A stretch of 64,000 nucleotides of DNA from Phytohabitans rumicis. Its GTDB lineage: Bacteria; Actinomycetota; Actinomycetes; Mycobacteriales; Micromonosporaceae. Shown piece by piece: positions 26,653 through 47,620 of the stretch. Positions within the stretch are counted from its first letter, which is position 1. Each line of letters starts with the position of its first letter. Location of the stretch: NCBI RefSeq assembly GCF_011764445.1, contig NZ_BLPG01000001.1:8609316-8673315 (forward strand), given 5' to 3'. Under the pieces are notes generated by a model. It was not told the DNA's origin. It made no database searches and saw only the letters and a program-made list of their open reading frames with translations. Position numbers and translations under genes: made by a program.

Positions 26653-26739
26653 CGCGCCGATCAAGGACTTTCGCGTCGATCAAGGGCATATGGTCGCGGA
26701 TCGGAGATCAAACCACGGCCATTCGCCCTTGATCGACGC
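26653..26739 (+). repeat. dispersed palindromic repeat, copy 3
   Basis: Outer left arm GCCGATCAAGG, inner left arm CGTCGATCAAGGGCATATGG, a GAGATCAA loop, and right arm CCATTCGCCCTTGATCGACG. The stem has more mismatches than other copies. It lies between the XRE gene and the LtrA-like gene, which run in the same direction. Confidence 0.8.
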
Positions 26740-30782: not shown

Positions 30783-32263
30783 CTACAGGTCCCGCCGTTG
30801 AGGGTGAAGGTGGTGGGCGGCGGCTGCGTGCCGCCGGGCGTACCCAGGAAGCCGAACGTCACGGACGCACCCGGCGCTATCGTGCCGTTCCAGTTGGCGT
30901 TTCGGGCGGTGACGGCCGCGCCGTTCTGGGTCACCGTGGCGTTCCAGGCGCTGCCCACCTTCTGCGGACCCGGGTACGTCCAGCCGAGCGTCCAGCCGTT
31001 GATCGGGGCGGTGCTGGTGTTGGTGACCGTGACGTTGGCCAGGAAGCCGGTGCCCCAGGTCTGCGTGGTGTAGCTGACCGTGCACTTCACCACCCGGGCG
31101 AACGACAGCTTGTGCAGCTGGCCGGGCAGGTCGTTGACCAGGTACAGCTCGCCGTTGGAGTCGACGCCGAGGCTGGTCGGCTGGACGGTGTCCAGCTCCG
31201 CGATGCGGGCGCTCTCGTGGGTGCCGTCGGCCTTCTGGCGGACCGCCCACACGGCGGCCGAGCAGTAGTCGGTGTGCACGTAGGTGCCCGCCGCCAGGCT
31301 GGCGAACTGCGAACCCCGGTACACGTAGCCGCCGATCACCGCGCACCCGTCGAACGAGGTGCGGGTGGTGTGCACCGGGTCGACGTACGTCGCGCCGGCC
31401 ACGCACCGGTCCGCGTTGAACACCGCGAGCCCTTCGCGGCAGGACCAGCCGAGGTTGGCGCCGCCCTGGTTCGCGGCCAGGTGGTTGACCTCCTCGGTGG
31501 TGCCCTGGCCGACGTCGGCGATCCACAGTGAACCGCCCGCCGGGTCGAACGAGAACCGCCACGGGTTGCGCAGGCCGTACGTCCAGATCTCCGCGCGGGC
31601 GCCGGCCTGGCCGACGAACGGGTTGTCCTCGGGTACGCAGTAGTTGCGCCCGTCGCAGGAACGGCTCACGTCCAGCCGCACGATCTTGCCGAGCAGCGTG
31701 GCCAGGCTCTGTCCGCTGGCCAGCGGGTCGTTCGCCGAGCCGCCGTCGCCGAGGCTCCAGTACAGGTAGCCGTCGCTGCCGAAGGCCACCTGCCCGCCGT
31801 TGTGGTTGCCGAACTGGCTGTGCGGCTGGGTGAGGATGACCTGCTCGCTGGCGGCGTCGCCGAGGCGGACGCGGGAGAGGGTGAGCGTGCCGTCGGGCAG
31901 GGCGGTGTAGGCGACGTACACCGTCTGGGTATTGCCGAAGTCGGCGGCCACGGCGACGCCGAGCAGGCCGCGCTCGTTGCCGGAGACGTCGACGCGCGCG
32001 GAGATGTCGAGGACCGGCGTGCTGGCCAGGCCGCTGGCCGGGTCGTACACCCGGATGGTCCCGGGCTTTTCGGTTATGAGCAGGCGGCCGTTGTCGATGC
32101 CGGCGATGGCCGTCGGGCGCTGGAGGCCGAAGGCCACCTGCGTCGTGGTCATCGTGAGCTGATCGAGGGGTACGACGTCGGCGTGGGCCGGCCCGGTGGG
32201 GGTCAGCAGCGCACCGACGACGACCACCGTGACGGCCGCGGCCGCCCATCGACGTCGCAACAT
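30779..32263 (-). CDS. secreted glucose/sorbosone dehydrogenase-like protein with CBM2
   Basis: A 494-residue exported protein. The signal peptide is MLRRRWAAAAVTVVVVGALL and following residues. Residues of about 30-390 form the PQQ-type six-bladed sugar dehydrogenase fold (PTAIAGIDNGRLLITEKPGT; GNERGLLGVAVAADF; HNGGQVAFGSDGYLYWSLGD; IWTYGLRNPWRFSFDP). The C-terminal 100 residues are a family 2 carbohydrate-binding module (KCTVSYTTQTWGTGFLANVT and NGWTLGWTYPG), which binds cellulose or chitin. ATG at 32263 is chosen over one four codons upstream because GGGAG precedes it. It may be an extracellular PQQ or haem partner in polysaccharide oxidation (inference). It is divergent from another CBM2 protein. 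Confidence 0.92.
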   Translation of the reverse strand: MLRRRWAAAAVTVVVVGALLTPTGPAHADVVPLDQLTMTTTQVAFGLQRPTAIAGIDNGRLLITEKPGTIRVYDPASGLASTPVLDISARVDVSGNERGLLGVAVAADFGNTQTVYVAYTALPDGTLTLSRVRLGDAASEQVILTQPHSQFGNHNGGQVAFGSDGYLYWSLGDGGSANDPLASGQSLATLLGKIVRLDVSRSCDGRNYCVPEDNPFVGQAGARAEIWTYGLRNPWRFSFDPAGGSLWIADVGQGTTEEVNHLAANQGGANLGWSCREGLAVFNADRCVAGATYVDPVHTTRTSFDGCAVIGGYVYRGSQFASLAAGTYVHTDYCSAAVWAVRQKADGTHESARIAELDTVQPTSLGVDSNGELYLVNDLPGQLHKLSFARVVKCTVSYTTQTWGTGFLANVTVTNTSTAPINGWTLGWTYPGPQKVGSAWNATVTQNGAAVTARNANWNGTIAPGASVTFGFLGTPGGTQPPPTTFTLNGGTCS

Positions 32264-32453
32264 ATTCACTCCCATCGTTGACGGGACAATATCCGCCCGA
32301 TGGGTGTCCCGCCACCCCGTGATCAAGGGGCGGGTCGAGAAACGCTCGCGCACGGAACGAATTCGTGATCTTCGCTGTCTTCGTGGTATGTATAGGCCCT
32401 CAACTATCCAGCGGTCGCCGGGCGGGGTCGCACGAGAACATGCGAGGAGCACG

Positions 32454-33689
32454 ATGAAACGTGCCGTCCTAACGGCCGGCGTCGCTGCCGTCGCGGTGGC
32501 CGCCGGCATCGGCACCACCGTGGTGGCCCAGGCCGCCGCGGCCGGGTGCCGGGTGACGTATTCCGTCCCGTCCCAGTGGAGCGGCGGCTTCACCGCCAAC
32601 GTCAGCATCACGAACCTTGGCGACCCGCTCACCAGTTGGCGGCTGACCTGGGCGTTCCCGTCCGGGCAGTCGATCACCCAGGCGTGGAACGCCACCGTGA
32701 CGCAGAGCGGCAGCCAGGTCGCCGCGGCCAACATGAGCTACAACGGGTCGGTGGCCACCAACGCCTCGGTGTCGTTCGGCTTCAACGGCCAGTTCAGCAC
32801 GACGAACACCAGCCCGACGTCGTTCGCCGTCAACGGCACGACCTGTACGGGTTCGGTCACGCCGACCACCGGAGCCCCGACGACCGCCCCGCCGACCACG
32901 GCGCCGCCCACCACCGCACCCCCGACGACGCCGCCGCCCACCAGCGGCTGGAACCCGCCGTCCAACCTGGTACAGCCGCTCAACGAGGTCTGGACGCACC
33001 AGGAGCAGACCTACAACAACGGCAACCTGTACGGCTTCCGGAACTACGGCTGGGACCAGCTTCTGGCCAACCGGGGCTACATCAACTACTGCGTCCGGTG
33101 GGACTCGTCCGCCTCGGTGACGGCGACGCAGCGCGACCAGATCCACGCCGCCCTGCAGCGGCAGTACAAGAAGTGGATGGACGTCATGGTCGGCCACAAC
33201 AACTGGCCGTATACCGACGTTCCGGTGCGGGTCGTCGGCTGGGCCGTGCGGGACCGCGCGCAGCTACAGTGGTCGGACACCTCGGTCGACATCTACGTCA
33301 ACAACATCCGCGAGAACGCTCCACAGTGCTCGGAGCCGTGCGGTCGCTTCTTCAACCAGGGCGGCACGTACCCGAACTGCCCGGGCGGCGCGGCGCGGCA
33401 CTACGACCACTCGCTGTGGCTCACGGCCGGGTTCGGCGGAGGTGCCGGCGGAGACTGGGGACAGCGCGTCGGCAGCGAGTACTTCATGGGCGCCCTGAAC
33501 TCCGACAACATCCACATCTTCCTGCACGAACTGGGCCATACGTATGGGTTGGACGACTTCTACGACTGGACCCCGACCGGCCAGTGCTGCTTCATCATGA
33601 AGGCGGGCAGCGCCAGCACGATCACCGAGTTCGACAAGTGGATGTTCCGCGACTGGTGGCGCCACCTGAAGTCCAGGTACGGCTACTAA
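32454..33689 (+). CDS. secreted CBM2-metzincin metalloprotease
   Basis: A 411-residue exported protein: signal peptide, N-terminal CBM2 (GCRVTYSVPSQWSGGFTANV to about residue 130), a PTTAPPTTAPPTT linker, then a catalytic domain. The zinc motif is HELGHTYGLDDF (near residue 361), the HExxHxxGxxD/H pattern of metzincins. Cys pairs (CSEPCG, CPGG, QCCF) suggest disulfides. CCFIMKAG may be the Met-turn. GAGGAG precedes the ATG. A cellulose/chitin-anchored protease is uncommon. It may process proteins at the cell wall or in plant or fungal biomass. It shares its promoter region with the divergent CBM2 dehydrogenase. Confidence 0.9.
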   Translation: MKRAVLTAGVAAVAVAAGIGTTVVAQAAAAGCRVTYSVPSQWSGGFTANVSITNLGDPLTSWRLTWAFPSGQSITQAWNATVTQSGSQVAAANMSYNGSVATNASVSFGFNGQFSTTNTSPTSFAVNGTTCTGSVTPTTGAPTTAPPTTAPPTTAPPTTPPPTSGWNPPSNLVQPLNEVWTHQEQTYNNGNLYGFRNYGWDQLLANRGYINYCVRWDSSASVTATQRDQIHAALQRQYKKWMDVMVGHNNWPYTDVPVRVVGWAVRDRAQLQWSDTSVDIYVNNIRENAPQCSEPCGRFFNQGGTYPNCPGGAARHYDHSLWLTAGFGGGAGGDWGQRVGSEYFMGALNSDNIHIFLHELGHTYGLDDFYDWTPTGQCCFIMKAGSASTITEFDKWMFRDWWRHLKSRYGY

Positions 33690-33722: not shown

Positions 33723-33807
33723 ACGTCGATCAAGGGCGAACGGTCGTGGTTCGATCTCCGATCCACGACCGTTCGCCCTTGATCGGCGCGAAAGTCCTTG
33801 ATCGCGA
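33723..33807 (-). repeat. dispersed palindromic repeat, copy 4
   Basis: Left arm ACGTCGATCAAGGGCGAACG and right arm CGTTCGCCCTTGATCGGCGC form a perfect inner stem. The loop reads GATCTCCGATC, so this copy is inverted relative to copies 1-3. A further CCTTGATCGCG outer arm follows. It lies 34 bp after the CBM2-metzincin stop. Confidence 0.85.
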
Positions 33808-33827
33808 ACGCCGAAGGGCAGGCCCGG

Positions 33828-33893
33828 CTAGGCGGTCAGGGAGGCGAGGCGGGGCCGGGTGAGGCGTACGTAGTCTTCGGTGTTCAGGGCCAC
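33828..33893 (-). pseudogene. possible 3' remnant of a lost gene
   Basis: Between repeat copies 4 and 5 the minus strand reads VALNTEDYVRLTRPRLASLT plus Ala and a TAG. It looks like the amphipathic C-terminus of a normal protein. The frame upstream runs into a TGA and then into repeat copy 5. The rest of the gene may have been lost when the repeats inserted. Parent family not recognised. Confidence 0.3.
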
Positions 33894-33913
33894 CGCGCAG
33901 GGCGCTCACCCCG

Positions 33914-34000
33914 AGTCGATCAAGGGAAACCCCGTCGATCAAGGGCATATGGTCGTGGAAAAGAGATCAAAGCACGACCATATGCCCTTGATCGACGGCA
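33914..34000 (+). repeat. dispersed palindromic repeat, copy 5
   Basis: Outer left arm AGTCGATCAAGGGAAACCCC, then the inner stem GGGCATATGGTCGTG paired perfectly with CACGACCATATGCCC around AAAAGAGATCAAAG. It lies 24 bp beyond the larC stop, with forward loop orientation. Confidence 0.85.
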
Positions 34001-34023: not shown

Positions 34024-35223
34024 TCACCGTGGGTGTTCGGGGGTGGCGGCGGAGCGGGCGGTCGCGAGGACGTCGGCCACGGGGAGGGCGGTGGCGTGGG
34101 CTACGGCCAGGGCGTCGTCGTACTCAGGTTGGACGGTCACGACCTGGTCGCCGAGGTGGCCGCGCTTGACCCGGACGGGGTGGCCGGCCACCGCGACGGA
34201 GACCTCGTCGCGGCGCAGGGCCCGGCGCGACACCGCCTGGAGGCGTACGCCGAGCGTGGTGGTCTGGGTGAACACGACCCGGCACACCAGGTCGACCCGG
34301 GCCGCGTCGACGAGCACCGTGAGCACCTGCCCGGGGCGGCCCTTGCGCATCAGCGCCGGCACGCACCAGGCGTCCGCGGCGCCGACGTCGCGCAGTTGCG
34401 ACAGTAGATCCGGCCACACCCGCGGGTCCAGGTCGTCCACCGTGGCCTCGACCTGCATCAGATCGCTGGAGATCCAGTCAGCGGAGGAAGGGGCCCCGGA
34501 AGGGGCGCCCACCAGCACGCGTACCACGTTGGGGTGGCCCGGCGGGTCGGCGGTGCCGGCGCCGACGCCGACCGCGCGCGGTGTCATGGCCGGCGGCGGG
34601 CCCCAGGCGGTCGCGAGCGTGGCCAGCAGGGCGGCGCCGGTGGGGGTGCACAGTTCCATTGTCGCGTTGTGGGCGGCGATCGGCGCGCCGGCTCCGGCGA
34701 GCAGTTCGACGACGGCGGGCGCGGGCACCGGGAGCGGGCCGTGTGCCGTGTGGACGGTGCCGGAGCCGACCGCGACGGGGGAGACCACGCGCACCGGGGC
34801 GGCCAGCAGGTCCAGGTCGTGCAGGGCCAGGGCGCAGCCGGCCACGTCGGCGATCGCGTCGAGCGCGCCCACCTCGTGGAAGTGCACCTGGTCCACGCCG
34901 GTGCCGTGCACGCGGGCCTCCGCTTCGGCCAGCCGGGTGAAGACGTCCCGCGCGAAGCCGCCCACGGGGCCGGGGAGCGGGGAAAGCAGGGCAAGCACAT
35001 CGGACAGTCCACGATGGACGTGCGACTCCGCGGGAGAGGTAACGAGGGCGTAGGAGGCCCGGAACCCGTGACGCCGCACCGGCGAGATCTCCACGGACAG
35101 AGGCAGGCCGAGAGTGTCCAGCCCGGAACGCACAGTGGACAGTGACGCGCCGGCGTCCACGAGTGCGGCCAACAGCATGTCTCCGGCCGCCCCGTTGGAG
35201 GCGTCCACCCACAGTGCGCTCAT
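34024..35223 (-). CDS. larC: nickel-pincer cofactor biosynthesis protein LarC
   Basis: A 399-residue LarC. The family signature is ALWVDASNGAAGDMLLAALV at the start, with VHFHEVGALDAIADVAGCAL (near residue 110, His-rich) and TPTGAALLATLATAWGPPPAM in the middle. The C-terminal nickel-handling part (VEATVDDLDPRVWPDLLSQL) is present. LarC inserts nickel into the pincer nucleotide made by LarB and LarE, using CTP. In some Firmicutes larC is split, but here it is one gene. The ATG overlaps the TGA of larB (ATGA) once the larB frameshift is corrected. Confidence 0.95.
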   Translation of the reverse strand: MSALWVDASNGAAGDMLLAALVDAGASLSTVRSGLDTLGLPLSVEISPVRRHGFRASYALVTSPAESHVHRGLSDVLALLSPLPGPVGGFARDVFTRLAEAEARVHGTGVDQVHFHEVGALDAIADVAGCALALHDLDLLAAPVRVVSPVAVGSGTVHTAHGPLPVPAPAVVELLAGAGAPIAAHNATMELCTPTGAALLATLATAWGPPPAMTPRAVGVGAGTADPPGHPNVVRVLVGAPSGAPSSADWISSDLMQVEATVDDLDPRVWPDLLSQLRDVGAADAWCVPALMRKGRPGQVLTVLVDAARVDLVCRVVFTQTTTLGVRLQAVSRRALRRDEVSVAVAGHPVRVKRGHLGDQVVTVQPEYDDALAVAHATALPVADVLATARSAATPEHPR

Positions 35224-35914
35224 CGAGCGCGCCGGGCGATCCGGGCCGCGGCCACCCCGCGCCGAAGCCATTGTCCACATTGACCGTCAGCACCCCGGGA
35301 GCGCAGCTGTTCAGCGTGGCGAGCCAGGCGGTGAGGCCGTCCAGGTGCCAGCCGTACCCGATGCTGGTCGGCACCGCGATCAGCGGGACGCCGGTGAGGC
35401 CGCCGACCACCGACGGCAGTGCGGCCTCCATGCCGGCGACCGCGACCACGACGTCGGCGGTGTCGATGCGGTCCCGCTGGGCGAGCAGCCGGTGCAGGCC
35501 GGCGATGCCCACGTCGACGATGACGTCGGGTTCGGCGCCGAAGACCCGTACCGTGGTCGCGCACTCCCGGACGACCGGCAGGTCGGCGGTGCCGGCCCCG
35601 ACCACCGCGACCCGGCCGCGGGCCGGGCCCGGATCGCCGAGGACGGCGACCCGCGCGACCTCGTCGACCTCGGCGCCGGGCAGTTCGGCGCGGCAGCGGG
35701 CGAGCGCCTCGTCGGACAGCCGGGTGGCCAGGACGGCGTTGTCGGGGTGGGCCTCGTGCAGCGCGCGCAGCGCGGCGACGATCTGCTGGGGCGTCTTGCC
35801 GCGGCCGAACACCACCTCCGGGTCGCCGGTGCGCGCCGCCCGGTCCAGGTCGAGCCGGGCGAAGCCGAGATCCGCGATCTCCGCGCCGGCCCCGTTTGGG
35901 TACCGTTCAGTCAT
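35220..35914 (-). CDS. larB: nickel-pincer cofactor biosynthesis protein LarB, frameshift near the end
   Basis: A protein of about 231 residues after restoring one base. The body matches LarB: ADLGFARLDLDRAARTGDPE, VVFGRGKTPQQIV, the PurE-like core VVGAGTADLPVVRECATT and GMEAALPSVVGGLTGVPLIA. LarB carboxylates and hydrolyses nicotinic acid adenine dinucleotide, the first step of cofactor synthesis. At 35255-35258 a G4 run on the coding strand lacks one base. With it, the end reads NVDNGFGAGVAAARIARRAR and stops in ATGA overlap with larC, as expected. Its ATG (35912-35914) overlaps the divergent larE ATG (35913-35915) in a single CATG. Confidence 0.93.
35901..35906 (+). promoter_or_regulatory. 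TACCGT -10 box for a leaderless larE message
   Basis: TACCGT fits the TANNNT -10 consensus and lies six bases before the larE ATG, the spacing expected when transcription starts at the A of the start codon. It lies inside the larB coding region. No ribosome-binding site precedes larE. Confidence 0.5.
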
Positions 35915-36752
35915 GCTGCCCCCATCTGCCGCGGACCGGCTGGTCGCCGAACTCGCAGGATACGGCCGGACGCTCGTGGCGCTTTCCGGCGGCGTCGACT
36001 CCAGCGTGGTGCTCGCCGCGGCGGCGCGGGCGCTGGGGCCGGACGGGGTGGCGGGCGTCACGGCGGTCTCGCCCGCGGTGCCCGCCGCGGAGGTGGCCGA
36101 GGCGGCGGAGTTCTGCGCGCGGCTGGGGGTCGAGCACCACGCGGTGCGGACCCGCGAGATGGACGTGGCCGGCTACCGCGAGAACGGGCCGCGGCGCTGC
36201 TACTTCTGCAAGAGCACGCTGCTGGACACGGCGACCCGGGTCGCCGAGGAGCACGGGTTCGCCGCGGTGGCCACCGGCACGAACGCCTCCGACGTCGCCG
36301 CCGGCTTCCGGCCGGGCATCCGGGCCGCGGCCGAGCGCGGTGCGCGTACCCCGCTCGCCGATCTGGGCCTGGACAAGGGCGCGGTCCGCGCGATCGCGCG
36401 GACCTGGGGCCTGCGGACCGCGGACAAGCCGGCCGCCGCGTGCCTGTCCAGCCGCATCGCGTACGGCGTGGCGATCACGCCGGCGCGCCTGGCCCGGGTG
36501 GAGCGCGCGGAGGCCGCCGCCCGCCGGTTGCTCGCCGCCCATCATGTGCACAATGTCCGGGTACGGGACTTGGGCGGCTCGGTCCGCCTAGAGGTGGACG
36601 AGCACGTGGTCGAGCCGGCGCGCGACGACCCGGACCTGCGCGCCGCGATCCTGGCGGCGGGGTTCGACGGGGCGGCGCTGACGGTGGAGGCGTTCCGCTC
36701 CGGGTCGATGAACGAGATGCTCACCGACCCGGAGCAATGGCGGAGGGTCTAG
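35913..36752 (+). CDS. larE: sulfur transferase LarE for nickel-pincer cofactor
   Basis: A 279-residue PP-loop enzyme. The ATP motif is SGGVDSS (residues 25-31). RCYFCK holds C96 and C99. C177 in KPAAACLSSRIAYG aligns with the sacrificial Cys176 of Lactobacillus LarE, whose sulfur is transferred to the cofactor. The C-terminal part is complete. It reads away from larB, sharing the bases of its start codon with larB, and probably starts on a leaderless transcript. Its TAG overlaps the TAG of the convergent FnIII gene at a CTAG. Confidence 0.95.
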   Translation: MLPPSAADRLVAELAGYGRTLVALSGGVDSSVVLAAAARALGPDGVAGVTAVSPAVPAAEVAEAAEFCARLGVEHHAVRTREMDVAGYRENGPRRCYFCKSTLLDTATRVAEEHGFAAVATGTNASDVAAGFRPGIRAAAERGARTPLADLGLDKGAVRAIARTWGLRTADKPAAACLSSRIAYGVAITPARLARVERAEAAARRLLAAHHVHNVRVRDLGGSVRLEVDEHVVEPARDDPDLRAAILAAGFDGAALTVEAFRSGSMNEMLTDPEQWRRV

Positions 36753-37705
36753 CACTCGGCGAAGGCGCTCGTCACCTCGTTGCTGAGCGGGGAGCTGTTG
36801 CCGGACGGGTCGACCGCCCGGACGGCGAACGTGTTCAGCCCATTGACGTTGGTGTGGTACACGAAGCCGGTCGTCACCCCGACGAAGATCGTCTGGATGC
36901 CGCCGTTGACGAACACCTCGTACTCGATGGGTGTGCTGTTGTCGGTCGACGCGTTCCAGGCCAGGTCGACCGCGCAGCCCATGTCGAACGTGATGCGCAG
37001 GTTGCCCGGCGTGGTCGGCGCCGTCGCGTCCGCGCTGGGCGCGGTCGTCGCCACCACGGCGTTGCTGGGCGGGGAGAGGTTGCCGGCGGCGTCCGCGGCC
37101 CGGACGGTGAACGTGTACGCCGTGCCCGGGGTGAGATGGCGGACCGATGCCGTCCGGATCCCGGCGGACGGTATCGGCGTGGTGAACTGCGCGGGTGCCC
37201 CGTTGACGAAGATCCGGTAGCCGGGTGTGCCGGCGTCGTCGGTCGACGCCGTCCAGGACAGCGACGCCGTGGACTGGGTGACGCCGGTCACGGTCAGCAC
37301 CGGCGCGGTGGGCGGCGAGGTGTCCGGCGTCGTGGTGGCGGTGACCCGGTTACTCTCACCGGAGCGGTTGCCGGAGGTGTCTTCGGCCACCACCCAGTAG
37401 GTCTTGGTGTACCCCCGTACGCCGATCGTGTCCGTGAAGGTGGTCGAGCCCGGCGAGTGGTAGATCCCGTAGGTGCCCAGCGCGGACTGCTGGTACACGA
37501 TGTACGCGTTGAGCCCGACGTTGTCGCTGGCCGCGTTCCAGGCCAGCGAGATCGTCGTCGCCGTGACGGCGGTGACGCGCAGGTTGCCGGGCGTCGTCGG
37601 CGGCGTTCGATCGCGGCGTGGCGCCGCCCCCGCGGGTGCCGCGGCGACGGCGAGGAGCGCCGCGGCGAGCGCTACACAGAGCGCACTGATAGTGATTCGC
37701 CTCAT
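36749..37705 (-). CDS. secreted protein with three fibronectin type III domains
   Basis: A 318-residue exported protein. The signal peptide is MRRITISALCVALAAALLAV plus AAAPAGA. Three FnIII modules start near residues 35, 133 and 233 (each opening PPTTPGNLRVT, PPTAPVLTVTG or APTTPGNLRITF, with YWVVAEDTSGN or YTFTVRAADAAGN strands). No catalytic domain is visible. Such modules usually accompany glycoside hydrolases, so this may be a stand-alone adhesion or accessory protein, or a broken enzyme. Its stop is interleaved with that of larE. A Ser/Thr kinase gene starts 77 bp upstream in the opposite direction. Confidence 0.88.
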   Translation of the reverse strand: MRRITISALCVALAAALLAVAAAPAGAAPRRDRTPPTTPGNLRVTAVTATTISLAWNAASDNVGLNAYIVYQQSALGTYGIYHSPGSTTFTDTIGVRGYTKTYWVVAEDTSGNRSGESNRVTATTTPDTSPPTAPVLTVTGVTQSTASLSWTASTDDAGTPGYRIFVNGAPAQFTTPIPSAGIRTASVRHLTPGTAYTFTVRAADAAGNLSPPSNAVVATTAPSADATAPTTPGNLRITFDMGCAVDLAWNASTDNSTPIEYEVFVNGGIQTIFVGVTTGFVYHTNVNGLNTFAVRAVDPSGNSSPLSNEVTSAFAEC

Positions 37706-37781
37706 ACGTCAAACGTGACTGCCGGGGTCAAGGCTGCGTCAAGGGGTGGTCAAGGCCGCCGGGAGTGGGTATCGGTAGAGC

Positions 37782-39040
37782 GTGCTGAGTTCTGGAGTTT
37801 CGCTCGACGACCGCTACCGCCTCGACGCCCGGGTCGCCACGGGGGCATGGGAGACGTGTGGCGGGCGACCGATCTCCTCCTCGGCCGTACGGTCGCGGTC
37901 AAGATCTTGCTGCCCACGCTGTCGAACGACGCGTCGTTCGGGGCGCGCTTCCTCGCCGAGTCGCGCATGATGGCCGCCGTCCGCCACCCCGGCGTCGTTC
38001 AGGTGTACGACCGGGGCGAGTGCGACCTGCCCGAGGGCGGCCGGGCGACGTACCTGGTGATGGAGTACGTCGACGGCGAGCCGCTGTCCGCCCGGATCGC
38101 CCGGGAGGGGCGGCTGACCGCCGCGGAGACCATGTCGGTCGTGGCCCAGTCCGCGCGGGCGCTCGACGCCGCGCACGCCGGCGGCATCGTGCACCGCGAC
38201 GTCAAGCCGAGCAACCTGCTGATCCGGCCAGACGGCACGGTGGTGCTGCTGGACTTCGGGGTGGCGCGGTCCACCGAGCTGACCAGCCTCACCCGGACCA
38301 GCGGCGTGCTCGGCACCGCGTTCTACATGGCCCCCGAGCAGGCGTCCCAGCGGCCCGTCTCGGCCGCCACCGACGTGTACGCCCTCGGCGCGGTGGCGTA
38401 CCACGCGCTGGCCGGGCATCCGCCGTTCATGGGCGAGAGCCCGCTGGCCATCGCGATGATGCACGTCGAGGCGCAACCGCCGGAACTGCCCGCCGACGTG
38501 CCCCCGCCGGTACGCGCCGTGGTCGTCCGCGCGATGGCCAAGAACCCCGCCGACCGGTACCCGACCGCCGCCGCCATGGCGGACGCCGCCGAGGCCGCCG
38601 CGGCGGGCACGGGCGTCACGGCGACGGCGGAACTGCCCGCGGTGCTCGTTCCCGGCGGGCCGCCCGCTACGGGCCGGCGCCGCCGGGTCGTAGCGGTCGT
38701 GGGCGCGGTGGCCGCCGCGAGCGTGCTGGCCGTGGGGGCGGCGCTCCTGCTCGCCGCGAACGGCGACGCACCGCCCGCCGACGGCACCACGAGCGCGCCC
38801 GCCACGACCGGGGCCACCCAGCCGGGCCAGCCGCAGCGGACCAACACGCCGGGCACGCGGACGACCGCCCCGCCGAGCCAGGCCCCACGGACGAGCGCGG
38901 CGGCCACGCCGAGCGAGGAGCCCAGCGAGTCGGCGGAGCCCCCGTCCAACCCGACGAGCGCGGCGCCCGAGCCGACCGGGTCGGTGCCGGCGGCCGGGTC
39001 GACCCCGAGCGCGGAAAGCTCGGCCGGCTCCGCCGGCTAG
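37782..39040 (+). CDS. transmembrane Ser/Thr protein kinase (PknB type), one frameshift
   Basis: A kinase of about 419 residues after restoring one base. It opens MLSSGVSLDDRYRLDARVAT. A G5 run at 37841-37845 should be G6, giving GGMGDVWRATDLLLGRTVAV, the Gly-rich loop. The kinase core then follows: TVAVKILLP (Lys), HRDVKPSNLL, DFGVARS, GTAFYMAPEQ and DVYALGAVAYHALAG. After residue 290 an Arg-rich stretch leads into a membrane helix (VVGAVAAASVLAVGAALLLA) and a Thr/Pro/Ser-rich outer tail without PASTA repeats. The stop overlaps that of the convergent PlsC gene at CTAG. Confidence 0.93.
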
Positions 39041-39949
39041 TCCTCCCAGGCGGGGGTGCGGCGGGGGTGGCCAGGGGGCGGGTGGACTCCCAGGTGCGGC
39101 GCCAGGAGCCCTGCGGGTACTGGTGGCCGTTGGGCAGCGACAGCTCGCGCTTGGCCTGGGCGCGCAGCGAGCCGTACCAGCCGAGCTCCTCCTCGGCCCA
39201 CAGCTGGGCGATCGACTCGGCCATCCGGGTGTTGAACCCGCGGGCGCCCTCGCCCTCCTCGGGGTGCAGCGGGGTGCCGTACCGGACCACCACGCGGGCC
39301 CGTCCCGGCACCGGCCAGTTGCGGCCGCGCGGCATCGCGGCGTACGTGCCGCGCAGCCCGATCGGGACCAGTGGCACGCCCTGGGTGACGCACAGGTGCG
39401 CCGCCCCAGCCGCAGCGGGGACATCCAGCCGTCCTCGCTGCGCGTGCCCTCCGGAAAGAGCAGCAGGCTCCAGCCCTTGGCCAGCAGGTACGGCGCGAGG
39501 CTGCGCAGCCGGCGGGACCGGTGCCGCTCGACGGGGAACGCGTTGAACACCAGCGCGGTCACCACCGCCCGCACGCGGGCGTCGAAGAAGTAGTCCGCGG
39601 CGGCGCCGACCGCGACCCGCTGGCCGAGGTGGCGGGGGAGCGAGCCGAGGATCAGCGGGGTGTCCAGGTGGCTGCTGTGGTTGGCCACGAACACCACCGG
39701 ACCCTTGAGCCCGGCGAGGCGGTCCCGACCCTCGATCTCCGGCTTGGTCGTGCTCCAGGCCAGCGGGGTGAGCACCCCGCGCTGCAGGACCCGCCGGGCG
39801 GCCTGGGCCACCTGGGTGCGGGCCCAGCCGGTGGGGAACTCGCGGGGCGGCGCCGGCGGCTCGTGCGCGATCGCCGAGCGGGGCGTACGCGACCGGCCGC
39901 GCCAGTCCCGCCCGCCGGTGAGCGCCCGGACATCCTTGATCAAGCCCAT
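39037..39949 (-). CDS. PlsC-type 1-acyl-glycerol-3-phosphate acyltransferase, two frameshifts
   Basis: A protein of about 304 residues after restoring two bases. The acyltransferase motifs are NHSSHLDTP (HX4D), LLFPEGTRSEDGWMSPLRLG and, in the second frame, LCVTQGVPLVPIGLRGTYAA. The first break is in a G4 run at 39404-39407 (LRLG to AAHLCV). The second is placed in a C5 run at 39063-39067, giving a natural end LATPRRTPAWED with a TAG that forms a CTAG overlap with the kinase stop. Without it the frame runs far into the kinase gene. It starts 10 bases after the LarA-like gene and is the last gene of that operon, pointing to a lysophospholipid-like acceptor. Confidence 0.87.
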
Positions 39950-39958
39950 GACGTGCCC

Positions 39959-41536
39959 TCACCGTACGTCGGCCATCGCGAGCGGTGGCGTGTGGTGGTA
40001 GGTGATGGTGGGGGAGCCGCCCACCCGCTCGCGGGCCATCTCCAGCGCGTCGTTCAGCGTGGACGCCGACCGGAAGCCCATGCGGGACGTCGTCTTGCGG
40101 TCGCCGCCGACGAAGATGACGTCGCCCAGGTGCTCCAGCGCGTGCGCGCCCCAGTACCACATGTAGAGCGGGTGCACGCCGTGGTACGCGTAGCTGTTGC
40201 GGTACAGGTGGATGTACCACGGGTCGGTGGCGAACTGCTCCTCGAACTTGGTCTCGATGGCCACCGGGTCGGTGGTCTCGGCGAGCACCTCTTCGAAGAA
40301 GTCGATGTAGCTCGGGTGGTGCACGGGGTGGAACTCGTTCTGCACCGGGTGGTAGTAGATCGCCACCCCGCCGGGCCGCACGATCGGCTGGTTGCGGTAC
40401 AGGTTGAAGAAGTACCCGAGGCCGAGCGACATCACCAGGATCGGGTTCATGATCGAGTTGACGTTGTACGGGCAGATGTACGGCAGGCCCCAGATGCCGA
40501 TGTCGGACGGACCGTCCACCTCGGTCAGCTGCTGGCGCAGGATGTGGCGCATGGTGACCTCGTGCACCTGGACCGGGTCGCCCGCGGTGACCGAGGTGAC
40601 CCCGTACGGCGACGCGGTCTTGTGCCAGAGCTGCCGGCGCTGCTTGGCCGGGGCGAGGTCGTTGGCGCGCTTCACCGCCAGGTAGGTGGCCTGGTCCTTC
40701 AGCGACCACTCCCACTCGCGCTTGTTCAGGAAGCCGAGCTGGGTCGGGAACGTGTCGTTGTTGACCGTCGTCTCGATCTGGAAGATCTTGAGGCTGTCGC
40801 CGAGCAGCCCGGCCATCCGGTCGTACGAGTGGTGCATGGCCGAGTTCGCCGGGTCGTTGAAGGACCGCGAGTGCCGCAGCGTGTGCACGTTGTGGTGGTG
40901 CTTGAGGCTGCGGTAGGAGGCGAGCCCGACCGACACCGACTTCGGCCCGCCGCTCATCGCGGTGAGCGACACGTTGACGTACACGATGAGGTCGCTCTCG
41001 GCGGCCCGGCGGTTGATCTCGACGATCTCGCCGTGCTTGGTGTGGCCGATGACGGTGAGGTTGGCCTTGTCCTCGGCGTCGTGGTTGCGCAGGTGGCGCG
41101 GGAAGAACGACCGGTAGACCCGCTCGCCGACGGTGCGCTTGAGCTCGGCGGGCGTCATCCGCCGGTGCAGCGCGTTGCCGGCGATCAGCTCGACGTCGTC
41201 GACGCCCTTGGCGGCGGCCAGCTCCAGCACGTGCTCGATGACCCGCTGGCGGATGTCCGGCGTACGCATCTGCGGCAACGGGATCGACAGGTCGTCGAAC
41301 ACGATGGTCAGCCGCATGCCGGGGCGCAGCAGCTCGTGCAGCGGCTCGCGGCCGAGCGGGTTGGCCAGCGCCTTGCGGATCTGCGCGTCGATGTCGCGCA
41401 GCCCGGGCAGCGACTCCGGCGGGTAGATGACCCGGCTGCCCAGCGGCAGCTTCTCCAGGCGGAAGCCCTCACCCTCGTGCATCAGCAATGCCGGGGTGCG
41501 CTCGTCCACCTCGAGAACGAAACCTGGTCTACTCAC
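39959..41536 (-). CDS. LarA-like nickel-pincer enzyme with altered active site
   Basis: A 525-residue member of the lactate racemase (LarA, DUF2088) family, longer than the usual 420-430. The N-domain aligns by eye: NPLGREPLHELLRPG, VFDDLSIPLPQ, IAGNALHRRMTPAEL, HLRNHDAEDKANL and MSGGPKSVSVGLASYRSLKH. K199 fits the Lys that bonds the cofactor (K184 in Lactobacillus) and H215 the nickel ligand H200. H124 fits the base H108. V189 takes the place of the second base H174, and I85 the place of substrate-binding R75. The C-terminal part is rich in Tyr, Trp and His and is unfamiliar. It lies between a dehydrogenase and an acyltransferase gene. It is unlikely to be a simple lactate racemase. Confidence 0.85.
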   Translation of the reverse strand: MSRPGFVLEVDERTPALLMHEGEGFRLEKLPLGSRVIYPPESLPGLRDIDAQIRKALANPLGREPLHELLRPGMRLTIVFDDLSIPLPQMRTPDIRQRVIEHVLELAAAKGVDDVELIAGNALHRRMTPAELKRTVGERVYRSFFPRHLRNHDAEDKANLTVIGHTKHGEIVEINRRAAESDLIVYVNVSLTAMSGGPKSVSVGLASYRSLKHHHNVHTLRHSRSFNDPANSAMHHSYDRMAGLLGDSLKIFQIETTVNNDTFPTQLGFLNKREWEWSLKDQATYLAVKRANDLAPAKQRRQLWHKTASPYGVTSVTAGDPVQVHEVTMRHILRQQLTEVDGPSDIGIWGLPYICPYNVNSIMNPILVMSLGLGYFFNLYRNQPIVRPGGVAIYYHPVQNEFHPVHHPSYIDFFEEVLAETTDPVAIETKFEEQFATDPWYIHLYRNSYAYHGVHPLYMWYWGAHALEHLGDVIFVGGDRKTTSRMGFRSASTLNDALEMARERVGGSPTITYHHTPPLAMADVR

Positions 41537-41549
41537 GGGTCAAATCCCC

Positions 41550-42743
41550 CTATTGATCCTTCGTCGGGTCGAACGCCACCTTGACCGAGCCCAACCGTCC
41601 AGCCGCGCTGGCGTGGCCGATCGCGTCCCGCCAGCGGGACAGCGGGTAGATCGCGTCGACGTACCCCGTCAGCGGCGCCGACTGGGCCAGCGCCAGCGCG
41701 TCCGGGAAGTCGTTGCCGCCGGAGGCGTACGCCCCGACCAGGTTGAGCTCGCGGAACCACACCGGCGTGAGGTCGGCACCGGCATTGGGCATGCCGGACA
41801 TCAGGACCGTACCGCCGGCGCGGACGACCCGCAGCGCGGTGTCCAGCCCGGAGCCGCCGGTGCACTCGAACGCGATGTCGGTGCCGCCGAGCAGGAACTC
41901 GGACGCCCGTTCCGGCCGGGCCAGGAAGCCGCCGGTCGCGCGGCGCAGCGCCCGGGCCGCCCGGTCCGAGGAGAGCACCTCGGTGGCGCCCATCTCACGG
42001 GCCCGTTCGCGCTGGTGGGCGTACCGGGCGATGACGTAGATCGGGCCGGCCTTGGTGTACTCGCGCAGGGCGAGCGTGGTGAACAGGCCGACCGTGCCGG
42101 CGCCCACCACGAGCACGCTGGCGCCGTCCGGGATCGAGATCCGGCGCACCGAGTGGACCGCGCACGCGAGCGGCTCGACGAGCAGGGCGCGCTCGTCGTC
42201 CAGCGCGTCCGGCACCCGGTGCAGCTGGCTGGCGTGCGCCACCAGCATCCGGCTCCAGCCGCCGCCGGTGTCCGCGCAGAAGCCGGTCTGCAGGCCGGCC
42301 GAGACCGCGCCGGACGTGATGTGGTCGCAGCGGCTGTGCTCGTCGGCGGCGCAGCCGGGGCAGACCTCGACCTGGCGGGGCAGGCAGCCGAGCACCGGGT
42401 CGAGCACCACGCGCGACCCGCGCGGCAGGTCGGGCAGGTCGTCCAGGGTCTCGCCGACCACCTCGTGGCCGGGGGTGAAGGGCATCGAGACCAGGGCCGA
42501 CAGGTACGGCGAGTTGCGCCCGGTGAGCAGGCCCAGGTCGGAGCCGCAGATGCCGGACAGCAGCGGCTTGACCCGGGTCCAGTCCGGCCCCGGCGGGCGC
42601 GGGTCGGGGCGGTTGACCAGGCGCAGCGGCGACATGTTGGCAGCCCACCAGCCCGACGCCCGCCCGCTGGCGATGGTGCCGGTCGCGGTGCGCGCGGCCA
42701 TGTAGCGGGCCGGCGAGCGGTGGTACTCCAGATTCAGGTTCAT
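41550..42743 (-). CDS. zinc-dependent alcohol dehydrogenase-like protein (MDR)
   Basis: A 397-residue medium-chain dehydrogenase. The catalytic zinc ligands are Cys in LLSGICGSDLGLL and His-Glu in TPGHEVVGE. The structural zinc lobe (CPGCAADEHSRCDH) is present, though one Cys of the usual four is less clear. The Rossmann motif is VLVVGAGTVGLFTTLALRE. An N-terminal extension of about 45 residues precedes the usual start. It probably interconverts an alcohol and an aldehyde or ketone in the lipid-type pathway of this operon. It overlaps the reductase gene by four bases, and the LarA-like gene follows 13 bases later. Confidence 0.9.
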   Translation of the reverse strand: MNLNLEYHRSPARYMAARTATGTIASGRASGWWAANMSPLRLVNRPDPRPPGPDWTRVKPLLSGICGSDLGLLTGRNSPYLSALVSMPFTPGHEVVGETLDDLPDLPRGSRVVLDPVLGCLPRQVEVCPGCAADEHSRCDHITSGAVSAGLQTGFCADTGGGWSRMLVAHASQLHRVPDALDDERALLVEPLACAVHSVRRISIPDGASVLVVGAGTVGLFTTLALREYTKAGPIYVIARYAHQRERAREMGATEVLSSDRAARALRRATGGFLARPERASEFLLGGTDIAFECTGGSGLDTALRVVRAGGTVLMSGMPNAGADLTPVWFRELNLVGAYASGGNDFPDALALAQSAPLTGYVDAIYPLSRWRDAIGHASAAGRLGSVKVAFDPTKDQ

Positions 42744-45000
42744 GGCACGGTCTCCAGGAACGCGTCGCCCACGGGCAACGTGTACGCCTTCCACTGCGCC
42801 ACCGGCCAGCGGCGGGAGCGGGCGTGGCGGTACAGGTGCGGGTCGGGGTTGACCGCGATCGGGTGCCCCACAGCCTCCAGCAGCGGGCGGTCGGAATAGC
42901 TGTCGCCGTACGCGTAGCTCTCGGTCAGGAGCGCGCCGGCGTTCTCGGCGTACCGGCGCAGCCAGGCGGCGCGGGCCTCGCCGACCAGCGGGGGCGACTC
43001 CAGGAACCCGGAGTAGCGGCCGTCCCGCACGTGCAGCCGGCTGGCCACCACCTCGTCGAAGAGGCCGGCGATCGGCTGGACCAGGACGTCGACCGTACCC
43101 GTGATGAGGACCGTGCGGTGCCCGGCCGCGCGGTGCTTGCGCACCTGCCGGATCGCCTCCGGGTGGGAACGGCGCAGCAGCGCGTCGCCGAGCCGGTCGT
43201 GCACGATCCGGGCCAGGCCCGCCTCGTCGGCGCCGGCGTACCGGCGCATGAACGTGCGCAGGAACTCGCCCCGGTCGCGGCGCTCCGCGGCCAGGTAGCG
43301 GGGCAGCTTGCGGACCAGGTCGGCCAGCTCGCCGGGCCAGCCGGAGCGGGGCAGGTCGCAGAGCCGGGCCAGCAGGTACGTCTCGATGACGTTGGACGCC
43401 ACGATCGTGCCTTCGAGGTCGAACACGGCCACCACGTCGCCGCCGTTCGCCGAGCGCTTGAGCGGCGGCAGCGCGCTGTTGCTGGTGCGCCTGCCGACGG
43501 TCGCCTTGCGCATGGTGGCGGTGACGGCCGGGTAGTGCACCTCTTGCAGGTAGTGGTGCCAGTCGACGACGGCGGCGTCGAAGCCGTGGTCCTCGACCCG
43601 GTCGGCCGGCAGCGACCGGTGCAGCGCCAGCAGCTTGTTGTCGGTGTAGACGACCTCGGCCTCGGTGTAGACGCCGTACAGGTCGGCGTACTTGCGCAGG
43701 AAGTCGACCTTGTCCTGCTGCCGGGTCAGGTCGTCCTGCCAGTGCCGGGTGCGCTTGGTGGCCGGGGCGGACAGCAGCAGCTTCTGCGCCACCGACAGCA
43801 CCTTCTCGCCGGTACGCAGCTGCCGCTCCACCCGCCGGGCGCCGGGGAAGGTCCACTCCGGCACCTTGATCTGGCCGCGCCCGCCGTCCGGCATCGGGTG
43901 CTCGGTGAAGTACTCCCGGACGCTCTCGTGGATGCCGCGGAAGGTGAGCGGGTTTCGGGCGCCGGATCCCACGTGGTAGTACGCGGGCTCGTCCACCGGC
44001 GGCGGCGCGGCCGCCACCGCGAGGGTCGCGTTGACCACGATGTCGACCGGGATGATGTCGAGCGCGCCGTCCGGCAGGCCGGGGAACTCCGGCAGGATGC
44101 CCCGGCCGTACGCCAGGATCAGCGGGTCGGCCATCTTGAAGCCGTCGATCCACCCCGGGTACGGGTGCTTGAGCGAGCTCTCCACGATCGCCGGCCGGAC
44201 CACCGACAGCGGCATCACGCCGATCAGGGTCTCCTCGGCCACCCGCTCGCCGAGCGCCTTCGTGAACGTGTACACGTCGGGCCACCCGACGCTCTGCGCG
44301 CGCAGCCGGCCGTACTCGATCAGTTGGTTCTCGACCCACTCTTTGCGCCGCTCCTCGGCGGCGGCCGAGGTGCTCTGCGGCCCGGACTTGCCGTGGTCCT
44401 TGCGGGCCTCCGCGAGCAGGCGGCGCAGGACCGCCGGGCGCCGCGAATCCCACTCCACGCTCTCCCGCGCCGCGCGCGCCGCGGCCAGCTCGGTCCGCCA
44501 CCGCGCGTCGTGGTCCAGCGATCTTTCGGGTACGACGCCCTTGCGCGCCCCGGCGACATAGGCGGTCGAGACGTGCACGATGTGGGGCGTGACGCCCGCT
44601 TTCTTCACGGCGTCGTAGAGGTCGACGACCCCTGCACGTTGGTGCGGAAGGCGTCGTCGATGGGCGGGTCGAACGACACCGTCGAGGCCGCGTGGATCAC
44701 CGCGCCGACGTCACCGGGCAGCGTGAACTCGGTGTTGCCCAGCTCGCCGTCGATGACCTTGACCCGCTCGGCGACCGCCGCGGCGACGCCGTCCGCGCCG
44801 ACCGCGTCCCGCCAGCGGTTGAACACCGGCCGGCGCAGCAGCGTGGCCAGCCGGTCGCTGCCGGACGAGCTGCCCCGGCGGCGGACCAGCAGCGTGACCC
44901 GGGTCTCGGGGTAGCTGGACAGGATCTTCTCCAGCAGCGCCTGACCGAGGAAACCGGTGCCGCCGGTCAGCAGGATGTGCTCCCCGTGTAAGTGGCTCAT
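42740..45000 (-). CDS. fatty acyl-CoA reductase fused to HAD-IB phosphatase-like domain, one frameshift
   Basis: A protein of about 753 residues after restoring one base. Residues 1-370 are an NAD_binding_4/Male-sterility type reductase: LLTGGTGFLGQALLEKIL at 11-28, HVSTAYVAG, and YTFTK (Y244, K248). The frame break is in a G4 run at 44629-44632 (FRTNVQG to VVDLYDAVKKAG). Residues of about 520-753 form a HAD-IB domain: FDLEGTIVASN (528 on), VLITGTVDVLVQP and YGDSYSDRPLLEAVG. The second Asp of the DxDGT motif is Glu here. Such reductases turn acyl-CoA or acyl-ACP into aldehyde or alcohol. It is coupled to both neighbours by ATGA overlaps. Confidence 0.9.
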
Positions 45001-45803
45001 GCGGTAGCGACCCGCACGCCGAAGCTCGCCATGGCCTTGGACACCAGGTCGAGCCCTTCCTGGCCGGGCAGCTTGTCGACCTTCCCGTCGAGCATCCGCA
45101 CCATCTTGCCGCCGTCCTCCCCGCCGAGCAGGTGGTTGAGTACGAACCGAGTCTCCGCCTTGGGCGTGATGGTCGATCCCACCGGGGCCCAGAAACGGCG
45201 CAGCGCGAACCGGGTGATGCGCTGGGCACGCCGGCTCTTCTCCAGCCGTTCGCGGGCTTCGGACATGTAGAACGCCAAGTGTCGGCTCTCCTGTTGCTGG
45301 ATACGCTGCAGAATCTTCGTCAGCGTCGCATGCTGTTCAAGCTCGATCAACCTGCCGTAGGCGGCGTGCGCCGACCACTCGTTGACCGCTCCCCAGGTCA
45401 TGTGCGTGGCGATGAAATCCTCGCCCAGGACCGCCGCGGCGAGGCACTGCGTGATCGGCGCGACCACGTTGCCGGCGAACCCCTGGGCCCGGCGCACCGA
45501 CTCGTGCCGGGGCAGCCCGTTGATCTCGTCGTGCACCGCGAGGATCCGGTCGATGACATCGCCGTGCCAGAACTCCTCGAAGTTCCACATGGTCAGGAAC
45601 GTGGTGATCCGTGGGTTCTGGTGCGACGGGGTGACGAGCAGGTCGCGCAGGTAGCAGACGGTATGCGTCTCCACGTCGGTCATGTAGTGCAGGCAGCGCA
45701 GGGCATCGGCGGACAAGGGCTGGTCGCGGAAGTCATCGAAGTCGATGTCGTCCACCTGTACGGCCTTGGCGGTGTGTTTGTAGTGGTCGAGGTTGAATGA
45801 CAT
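44997..45803 (-). CDS. ferritin-like diiron protein related to acyl-ACP desaturases
   Basis: A 268-residue, mostly helical protein. The diiron ligands can be placed on the stearoyl-ACP desaturase pattern: E45 (TDVETH), E77 and H80 (EEFWHGD, compare EENRHGD), E142 (NEWSAH), and E172 and H175 (QESRH, compare DEKRH). It opens MSFNLDHYKHTAKAVQVDDI. All six ligands are present, so an O2-activating carboxylate-bridged diiron site is likely, for desaturation or hydroxylation of an acyl chain. It is the first structural gene after the TetR gene. ATGA overlap couples it to the reductase/HAD gene. Confidence 0.85.
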   Translation of the reverse strand: MSFNLDHYKHTAKAVQVDDIDFDDFRDQPLSADALRCLHYMTDVETHTVCYLRDLLVTPSHQNPRITTFLTMWNFEEFWHGDVIDRILAVHDEINGLPRHESVRRAQGFAGNVVAPITQCLAAAVLGEDFIATHMTWGAVNEWSAHAAYGRLIELEQHATLTKILQRIQQQESRHLAFYMSEARERLEKSRRAQRITRFALRRFWAPVGSTITPKAETRFVLNHLLGGEDGGKMVRMLDGKVDKLPGQEGLDLVSKAMASFGVRVATA

Positions 45804-45824
45804 TCGGCCGGCCTCCGAGGGGGA

Positions 45825-46442
45825 TCAGGTGACGGCGTGCAAATACAGGTCGACCACTTCGTCGACCCGCTTGCGATTCGGAACCAGGACACTGTCGGGA
45901 CGGGCGAGCCCGTCGAGGAAGACGAAGGTCATCATCGGGCCGATGAAGAGCCGGGTGGCGAGGTCGAGGTCCAGGTCGCTCTTGATGACCCCGGCGGCGC
46001 GGGCGCGGTCCAGCACGGCCTCGACGCGGGCCAGGAAGCGTGCGGGGACGGTCTCCCGCCAGATGGTGAGCAGCCCCGGCGTGGTGGCCATCTCGGCGAT
46101 GAAGATGCGGAACAGGGCCAGGTAGTCGTCGCTCATGAGGTGGCTGACCATCACCCAGCCCACCTCGGACAGCACGTCGCGCAGGTCCTCCCGGGAGGTG
46201 ACCGGGCGGTCGGCCAGCAGCGGCGCGCGCTCGTCGAGGGACGTCACGATCCCACCGAGTACGTCGACGAGCAGGTCTTCCTTGCTGCGGAAGTAAACGT
46301 AAAGAGTCTGTTTCGAGACGCCGGCACAGGCGGCGACGTGATCCATGCTGGTGCCGGCGACCCCCGACTCCAGGAAGGCGGTGAGAGCGCCGTTGCGGAT
46401 CTGGGCGCGCTTGGCCTGGGCACGCCGTGAATCCAGCTCCAC
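45825..46442 (-). CDS. TetR-family regulator of the lipid-type operon
   Basis: A 205-residue TetR protein. The helix-turn-helix is TSMDHVAACAGVSKQTLYVY (about residues 31-50), followed by FRSKEDLL. The C-terminal ligand domain (ALFRIFIAEMATTPGLLTIW) resembles TetR_C_7-type regulators of drug and lipid genes. GTG at 46442 is chosen because a G-rich site precedes it. A TTG at 46478 would add 12 residues and reach into the palindrome. It lies 21 bp before the desaturase-like gene on the same strand, so it heads the operon and may repress it. Confidence 0.9.
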   Translation of the reverse strand: MELDSRRAQAKRAQIRNGALTAFLESGVAGTSMDHVAACAGVSKQTLYVYFRSKEDLLVDVLGGIVTSLDERAPLLADRPVTSREDLRDVLSEVGWVMVSHLMSDDYLALFRIFIAEMATTPGLLTIWRETVPARFLARVEAVLDRARAAGVIKSDLDLDLATRLFIGPMMTFVFLDGLARPDSVLVPNRKRVDEVVDLYLHAVT

Positions 46443-46622: not shown

Positions 46623-46707
46623 TCGTCGATCAAGGGCATACGGTCGTGCTTCGATCTCCAAACCACGACCCTTTGCCCTTGATCGACGCGGAATCCCTTG
46701 ATCGGCG
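46623..46707 (-). repeat. dispersed palindromic repeat, copy 6
   Basis: Left arm TCGTCGATCAAGGGCATACG, loop GATCTCCAAA (reverse orientation), right arm CTTTGCCCTTGATCGACGCG, outer arm CCCTTGATCGGCG. The stem has two mismatches. Confidence 0.82.
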
Positions 46708-47515: not shown

Positions 47516-47620
47516 CGTCGATCAAGGGATTTCCCGCCGATCAAGGGCAAACGGCTGTGGAAAAGAGATCCAACCACGACCGTATGCCCTTGATCGGCGG
47601 GGGAGTCCTTGATCGACGGG
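47516..47620 (+). repeat. dispersed palindromic repeat, copy 7
   Basis: Full-length copy: outer left arm TCGTCGATCAAGGGATTTCC, inner stem GGGCAAACGG with CCGTATGCCC (one internal mismatch), loop AAAAGAGATCCAA, outer right arm TCCTTGATCGACGGGG. It lies about 50 bp beyond the glgB stop. Confidence 0.83.

Follow-up and report, generated by a model that had tools for sequence, protein, structure and literature searches.

The genome of the soil actinomycete Phytohabitans rumicis (10.7 Mb, three contigs) encodes, within the 64,000-nucleotide stretch analysed here as the window (G000:C1:8609316-8673315), a homologue of the lactate racemase LarA, hereafter LarAH. Its gene lies in an operon of lipid-type genes, close to the cofactor genes larC, larB and larE (Table 1). 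Computation gave the family of this protein, its cofactor residues, the gene set conserved around it and its co-occurrence with the cofactor genes. We propose that LarAH is a single-histidine enzyme dependent on the nickel-pincer nucleotide (NPN) and a core member of a glycerolipid operon, probably for alkyl (ether) lipid, a reading to which we give about an even chance.

The operon runs on the minus strand in the order TetR regulator, diiron protein, acyl reductase-HAD fusion, Zn dehydrogenase, LarAH and PlsC. As the gaps between its genes range from -4 to +21 bases, with ATGA overlaps at 44997-45000 and 42740-42743 and plsC 9 bases downstream of the LarAH gene, it reads like a single transcript. 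All three lar genes adjoin it, and larC also scores 189 and 124 bits with the two NCBIfam LarC models, both above cut-off. Three genes are interrupted by frame breaks, namely larB (35225-35250, near its 3' end), plsC (39390-39420, at about 39410) and the reductase gene (44600-44632, at about 44630). In Phytohabitans flavus (L101), the reductase-HAD orthologue is a single frame of 756 residues and plsC an open frame of 304 codons, which suggests that the breaks are indel errors in the assemblies; real mutations are the alternative. The Phytohabitans suffuscus record (L194) likewise has larB and larE each in two pieces. These two species provide the nearest named relatives of LarAH, at 94% (P. 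flavus) and 93% (P. suffuscus), among the best 80 of 580 stretches.

Table 1. Genes of the lipid operon and of the NPN cofactor in the window; some gene starts and calls come from a simple codon-usage script
Feature	Position	Strand	Size, models and remarks
LarA homologue (LarAH14/15/16)	39959-41536	-	525 amino acids, GTG start; NCBIfam NF052592, Pfam Lar_N
Zn-dependent medium-chain dehydrogenase, polyol/ketose-dehydrogenase-like	41550-42743	-	Pfam ADH_N, ADH_zinc_N
Fatty-acyl reductase fused to HAD-IB phosphatase	42740-45000	-	Pfam NAD_binding_4, HAD; TIGR01490
Reductase-HAD pieces (open reading frames)	44605-45000 and 42740-44608	-	HAD part about 42875-43429
PlsC-type acyltransferase	about 39037-39949 (end approximate)	-	Pfam Acyltransferase
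Ferritin-like diiron protein, weakly desaturase-like	44997-45803	-	Pfam FA_desaturase_2, E=0.0023, below cut-off
TetR/AefR-type regulator, operon head	45825-46442	-	Pfam TetR_N, TetR_C_7
larC, nickel insertion for pincer cofactor	34024-35223 or 35280	-	Pfam Ni_insertion, 386.7 bits; TIGR00299, NF052512
larB, cofactor carboxylase/hydrolase	about 35225-35914	-	NF033503, 222 bits (cut-off 175)
larE, sacrificial sulfur transferase	35913-36752	+	TIGR00268, 266 bits (cut-off 150)

The original prediction, drawn from the DNA letters, had placed the three lar genes at 34024-36752 with a broken larB, and had named the families of the operon genes, with LarAH 3 kb away at 39959-41536. Its lar genes all score above the NCBIfam cut-offs and its operon stands as described, with two further frame breaks, in the reductase and plsC, that it did not report. 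It had also called LarAH the only LarA-family protein in the window. This is true of the window and not of the genome, where a Lar_N search detected two further LarA homologues, at C1:1469293 (L095) and C2:858232 (L096). Judged by motif, both have His at the two catalytic positions, and their best model is a 'putative hexonate epimerase', below its cut-off.

LarAH matches the NCBIfam model NF052592 (LarAH14/15/16, 'NPN-dependent hydroxyacid isomerase') with 897.1 bits over residues 6-525, for a cut-off of 740, and two members from the Rubrobacter family score 866 and 858 bits. By its name, the model rests on LarAH groups 14 to 16 of Desguin et al. 2020 (PMC7583248), in which a Frankia LarAH14 proved inactive in all of seven 2-hydroxyacid assays. 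Groups 14 and 15 are described as devoid of the second catalytic histidine (Gatreddi et al. 2025, PMC12611868). The accessible text of these two papers gives no lipid setting for LarAH14/15/16, and a literature search found the term 'LarAH14' in PMC7583248 only. The family is therefore not new: it is already named, with no reaction assigned as far as we saw, and the original prediction was made without knowing that it had been named and partly assayed.

We counted active-site residues over 124 clade proteins, i.e. the window protein, 43 from loci of order and phylum samples and 80 from named loci; removing three duplicates (L043/L131, L044/L133 and L093/L150) leaves 121. A profile alignment with PDB sequences matches H124, K199 and H215 of LarAH to His108, Lys184 and His200 of LarA. 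These three residues, which correspond to one catalytic histidine, the cofactor lysine and the Ni-histidine, are present together in 123 of the 124 proteins (120/121 after deduplication). The position aligned with His174 of LarA (residue 190) is occupied by Asn, the invariant residue of group 17, in 100 proteins, by Thr in 20, by Ser in three and by Val in one, an assignment that hinges on the HMMER alignment having a gap of one residue. The window protein has Ser there, and the nearby N188 is retained in 123/124. At the position of Arg75, a residue that binds the NPN phosphate and the substrate carboxylate (PMC12611868), we found Leu in 92 proteins, Ile in 25, Cys in four, Val in two and Thr in one. 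H452 and H455 are invariant, and the counterpart of H455 in LarA_Sp is the active-site residue His401. Judging from the conserved residues and from the presence of LarC in all 42 named genomes searched, we regard the nickel-pincer dependence of LarAH as well supported, and the overall pattern suggests a cofactor-loaded, one-base hydride-transfer enzyme.

These features set the clade apart from LarA lactate racemase and the two-histidine LarAH racemases and epimerases, with which it shares the Lar_N fold and the equivalents of Lys184 and His200. A two-base racemase that binds a carboxylate is disfavoured because the equivalents of both His174 and Arg75 are gone. A variant of this function would be an NPN-dependent racemase or epimerase that works in one direction on a 2-hydroxy acid, such as a 2-hydroxy fatty acid or glycerate, and feeds the head group or the chain of a lipid. 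This would agree with the NCBI name 'hydroxyacid isomerase', with the existence of LarA relatives active on hydrophobic 2-hydroxy acids (PMC11770544) and with the one-histidine, one-direction racemase suggested for LarA_Sp (PMC12611868). We nevertheless consider it unlikely, given that His occupies the His174-aligned position in none of the 124 clade proteins aligned, that Arg75 gives way to Leu or Ile in 117/124 proteins and that the Frankia LarAH14 was inactive in all seven assays (PMC7583248). The epimerisation put forward in the original prediction is weakened by the same lack of a second histidine, while the new substrate class that it envisaged remains plausible.

The closest solved structures are those of LarA_Sp and LarA_Bw, of group 17, both by sequence and by fold. 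Searched against the PDB, a 12-member profile of the clade gave the single-histidine LarA entries 9q2u (E 9e-50) and 9q3j (E 2e-41) as top matches. An AlphaFold2 model of LarAH (mean predicted local distance difference test score 83.7) found 9q3k as its best Foldseek match, with E 4e-32 and a target template modelling score of 0.82. LarA_Sp and LarA_Bw resemble LarAH in having one catalytic histidine, the cofactor lysine and the Ni histidine. They differ by their low identity to it (18-23%), by a Lys (Lys76) at the Arg75 position, where the LarAH clade mostly has Leu or Ile, and by their carbohydrate setting, in contrast with the lipid setting of LarAH (PMC12611868).

That carbohydrate setting of the best fold matches (PMC12611868) raises the possibility that the substrate of LarAH is a sugar or polyol, or its phosphate, which would become the head group or the backbone of a lipid; the Zn dehydrogenase would then partner LarAH. 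The dehydrogenase is indeed nearest to polyol and ketose dehydrogenases, below all cut-offs, and its best solved-structure match is the ketose reductase 1e3j; none of the NCBIfam models searched reaches its cut-off with this protein. Its residues C65/H92/E93 and C119/C127/C130/C138, which we take to be the zinc ligands, are retained in 109 to 111 of 114 aligned sequences. However, no sugar kinase, glycosyltransferase or sugar isomerase was seen among the recurrent neighbour clusters listed, which we inspected by eye with one example each, and we hold a sugar or polyol substrate to be quite unlikely.

The genetic environment of LarAH is conserved. We analysed a named set, made of the 80 top-ranking stretches out of 580 confirmed, and the sampled set of 43 loci, and counted only the loci with enough flank. 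The reductase-HAD gene is found beside LarAH in 72/72 named and 40/41 sampled loci, the Zn dehydrogenase gene in 72/74 and 41/43, and plsC in 76/77 and 31/43, respectively. The PlsC query consisted of the first 200 residues of the frame-broken open reading frame, with the last residues out of frame. Eleven of the 12 sampled loci with no PlsC match belong to one family (f32), which we take to be the Rubrobacter family, and nine of these 11 carry plsY upstream. The conserved set thus consists of LarAH, reductase-HAD, Zn dehydrogenase and PlsC or PlsY, and its recurrence across named and sampled loci rules out a chance neighbourhood. Catalytic residues are conserved as well: in the reductase alignment (n=109), the YxxxK motif is kept in 107 sequences and the HAD Asp in all 109, and the HX4D residues of PlsC rank among the positions that reach at least 97% conservation over 107 aligned sequences.

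The original prediction of a conserved lipid-type setting is therefore borne out, except that it included the desaturase-like diiron protein. The diiron gene is near LarAH in only 11/66 named and 0/40 sampled loci, sometimes beyond the lar genes, so this protein is an accessory component outside the conserved core. A PDB sequence search with it gave no match; ExxH motifs are visible by eye in its alignment.

The association also holds at the genome scale. In the phylum sample, the LarAH clade is present in 92 of 396 genomes and the reductase-HAD fusion in 92 of 396, and 87 of the 97 genomes that have either carry both. The clade of 92 genomes corresponds to 113 matches minus 21 rows, six of which had weak or partial matches only and 15 of which were at 36-42% identity. 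The sample comprises one genome per species, many of them in tens to hundreds of contigs; as related genomes are not independent and assemblies are fragmented, Fisher values drawn from it are rough.

We asked whether wider LarA relatives share the operon. The loci L079-L089, with 27-41% identity, have no adjacent dehydrogenase, reductase-HAD or PlsC gene, with weak and distant matches only to operon genes in L079 and L088. The four tested among them (L080, L086, L088 and L089) fall below the LarAH14/15/16 cut-off. L079-L084 (families f36 and f50), which are 39-41% identical to LarAH, form a sister group that lacks the lipid operon, and in L080, L081, L083 and L084 the sister gene adjoins, by eye, a class III CoA-transferase-like gene. 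Within the clade, two Streptomyces loci (L139 and L142) lack a match to the dehydrogenase between their reductase and LarAH genes, and the Zn dehydrogenase thus appears dispensable in places. Part of the Rubrobacter family (L072-L075) has MOSC-like, MarR-like and globin-like genes, identified by eye, between the dehydrogenase and LarAH. Searches for the family in viral contigs gave 28 pattern matches, none of them confirmed, and those in plasmids gave nine records, all below 60% identity and none covering 80% of the protein.

If LarAH depends on NPN, the cofactor genes should accompany it. For 42 of the 80 named loci, those from the larger, mostly isolate records, the genome was searched for LarC, which was present in all 42. 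In the phylum sample it was found in 81 of the 92 clade genomes, compared with 167/304 other genomes. These counts rule out the idea that LarAH is an orphan whose hosts lack the cofactor genes. LarE and LarB were searched in 12 LarC-less genomes plus six (LarE) and five (LarB) others. Among the 11 clade genomes that lack LarC, four have LarE above cut-off, three of these also LarB, and seven have neither. Reported genome incompleteness predicts that 7.4 genomes would miss any one locus (P(>=7) 0.63; P(>=11) 0.11), so the seven absences fit incompleteness. The cofactor genes thus travel with LarAH, which the original prediction had named as support. Homologues commonly found in genomes without larB and larE would have refuted it, whereas the genomes that lack LarC and above-threshold LarE and LarB amount to 7/92.

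The fetched flank holds at least one lar gene in 28 of the 80 named loci, and the complete trio in 25. They lie upstream or downstream of the operon and in several orders, which points to a repeated joining of lar genes to the lipid operon. The genome of P. rumicis has a single LarC.

Several observations weigh against the reading that we favour. Seven sampled genomes keep the operon without LarC or above-threshold LarE and LarB, and among clade genomes at least 95% complete, three of 52 have no LarC, when 1.2 were expected. One locus (L094, G011:C69:3000-22524) retains the operon with a LarAH that has lost K199, H215 and H124 and that scores 668 bits with NF052592, below cut-off. Its genome, G011, 86% complete, gave no match for LarC, and none above cut-off for LarE and LarB, a joint loss that speaks for the cofactor link; L094 is perhaps a natural case of cofactor loss. 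In P. flavus and P. suffuscus the lar genes are 9-11 kb from LarAH, rather than the 3 kb seen in the window. Moreover, L095 and L096 should also need the cofactor and would share the single larBCE set of P. rumicis, so its presence is no proof of dedication to LarAH. As to the product, ether lipids are tied here to only one bacterial family that has the operon, and we know of no ether-lipid report for Kribbella, Nocardioides, Frankia or Actinomadura.

The seven genomes devoid of lar genes and the L094 operon could also mean that LarAH is a structural or regulatory protein and that NPN is not used in every host. We find this very improbable: all seven of those genomes, three of which are represented among the 124 proteins, retain H124, K199 and H215 in LarAH, like nearly the whole clade (123/124), the number of lar absences matches that expected from incompleteness, and every named genome searched has LarC.

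The link to ether lipids comes from Rubrobacter. A study listed in PMC11150832 (Sinninghe Damste et al. 2023) reports in its title that mixed ether/ester lipids are dominant in five species of Rubrobacterales. In Rubrobacter radiotolerans, plsY and the genes of reductase-HAD, dehydrogenase and LarAH follow each other head to tail with nothing between them. The Rubrobacterales study reportedly describes a putative 1-O-alkyl glycerol phosphate operon in five Rubrobacter genomes. The R. radiotolerans operon would be the natural candidate for it.

Known bacterial ether-lipid routes offer partial parallels. The elb operon of Myxococcus xanthus similarly combines an acyl reductase, a HAD protein, an acyltransferase domain and an oxidoreductase, and also holds elbC, whose function is described as unknown (PMC9131029). 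ElbD is a single protein that unites a reductase with domains for acyl-coenzyme A (CoA) synthetase, acyl carrier protein (ACP) and acyltransferase, unlike the reductase-HAD fusion. Pfam searches of the reductases of the window and four relatives detected NAD_binding_4, Sterile and HAD domains, the Sterile match being below cut-off in the window protein, and no ElbD-like AMP-binding, ACP or acyltransferase domain. DUF2229, the signature of the anaerobic Ger/PlsA ether-lipid route, was missing from all 32 genomes searched, including seven of the Rubrobacter family, in a search that detected it in 4 of 14 controls. In the literature searched, no paper combines lactate racemase and ether lipid, two papers that look unrelated by title combine nickel-pincer and phospholipid, and none combines DUF2088, acyltransferase and operon.

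From the enzyme types and the Rubrobacter data, the operon may make an alkyl-glycerol lipid, although this could fall either way with about equal probability. The reductase would convert acyl-CoA or acyl-ACP to a fatty alcohol or aldehyde, and PlsC, or PlsY in Rubrobacteraceae, would acylate glycerol phosphate. By means of NPN, LarAH would abstract a hydride at a carbon that bears a hydroxyl group in a glycerol-lipid intermediate, and would then return the same hydride, its one histidine handling the proton while the carbon centre is momentarily oxidised. The Zn dehydrogenase and the HAD phosphatase would adjust the redox state and the phosphate, and larB, larE and larC would supply the cofactor. 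The likely product would be an ether glycerolipid of the 1-O-alkyl type, such as has been reported for Rubrobacterales. A reductase and a protein with an acyltransferase fold could in principle suffice for the operon to make wax-type esters or free fatty alcohols instead. This is in our view a slim prospect, as the acyltransferase is of the PlsC type, i.e. that of glycerolipids, as nine of 11 Rubrobacter-family loci have PlsY, a glycerol-3-phosphate acyltransferase, and as such products leave no obvious task for an NPN enzyme.

A more specific and rather improbable version of the alkyl-lipid proposal is that LarAH itself forms the ether bond, by an NPN-driven acyl-to-alkyl exchange on 1-acyl-glycerol-3-phosphate. 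LarAH would remove the hydride from C2 of this substrate to give a ketone, which would let the 1-acyloxy group leave and the fatty alcohol made by the reductase add, before the hydride goes back to the same face. The net exchange would resemble that of alkylglycerone-phosphate synthase (AGPS), with NPN replacing flavin adenine dinucleotide. This version fits the sequence, because one base suffices, there is no inversion and there is no carboxylate to bind. If true, it would represent a further bacterial ether-lipid route beside Elb, AGPS and Ger/PlsA, and LarAH would be the first member of the LarA superfamily known to us that is not an isomerase.

In the accessible literature, the nickel-pincer cofactor has been assigned to racemisations or epimerisations of 2-hydroxy acids (PMC7583248, PMC11770544, PMC12611868). 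The LarAH clade is tied instead to a fatty-acyl reductase and glycerol-phosphate acyltransferases, a hint that this rare nickel chemistry may contribute to the synthesis of unusual membrane lipids, perhaps with ether linkages. Should the ether-lipid proposal be correct, it would join the function of single-histidine LarA proteins with ether-lipid synthesis in aerobes such as Rubrobacter, and deleting one gene would test both questions.

Two other features of the window were observed around these genes. The region 30779-33689, which adjoins the lar genes, codes by eye for a secreted protein similar to sugar dehydrogenases and for a divergent secreted protein, perhaps with a cellulose-binding module. 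In addition, copies of a palindromic repeat, with GTCGATCAAGGGCA arms about 35 bases apart, flank the lar/lipid region on both sides, at 15579, 25342-25404, 26675-26737, 33725-33996, 46625-46687, 47536-47598 and 53881-53942. The arms have 15 matches in the window with at most one mismatch, for 0.02 expected, and exact arms occur 672 times genome-wide versus 0 for the reversed control. This palindrome looks like a genome-wide extragenic palindromic element.

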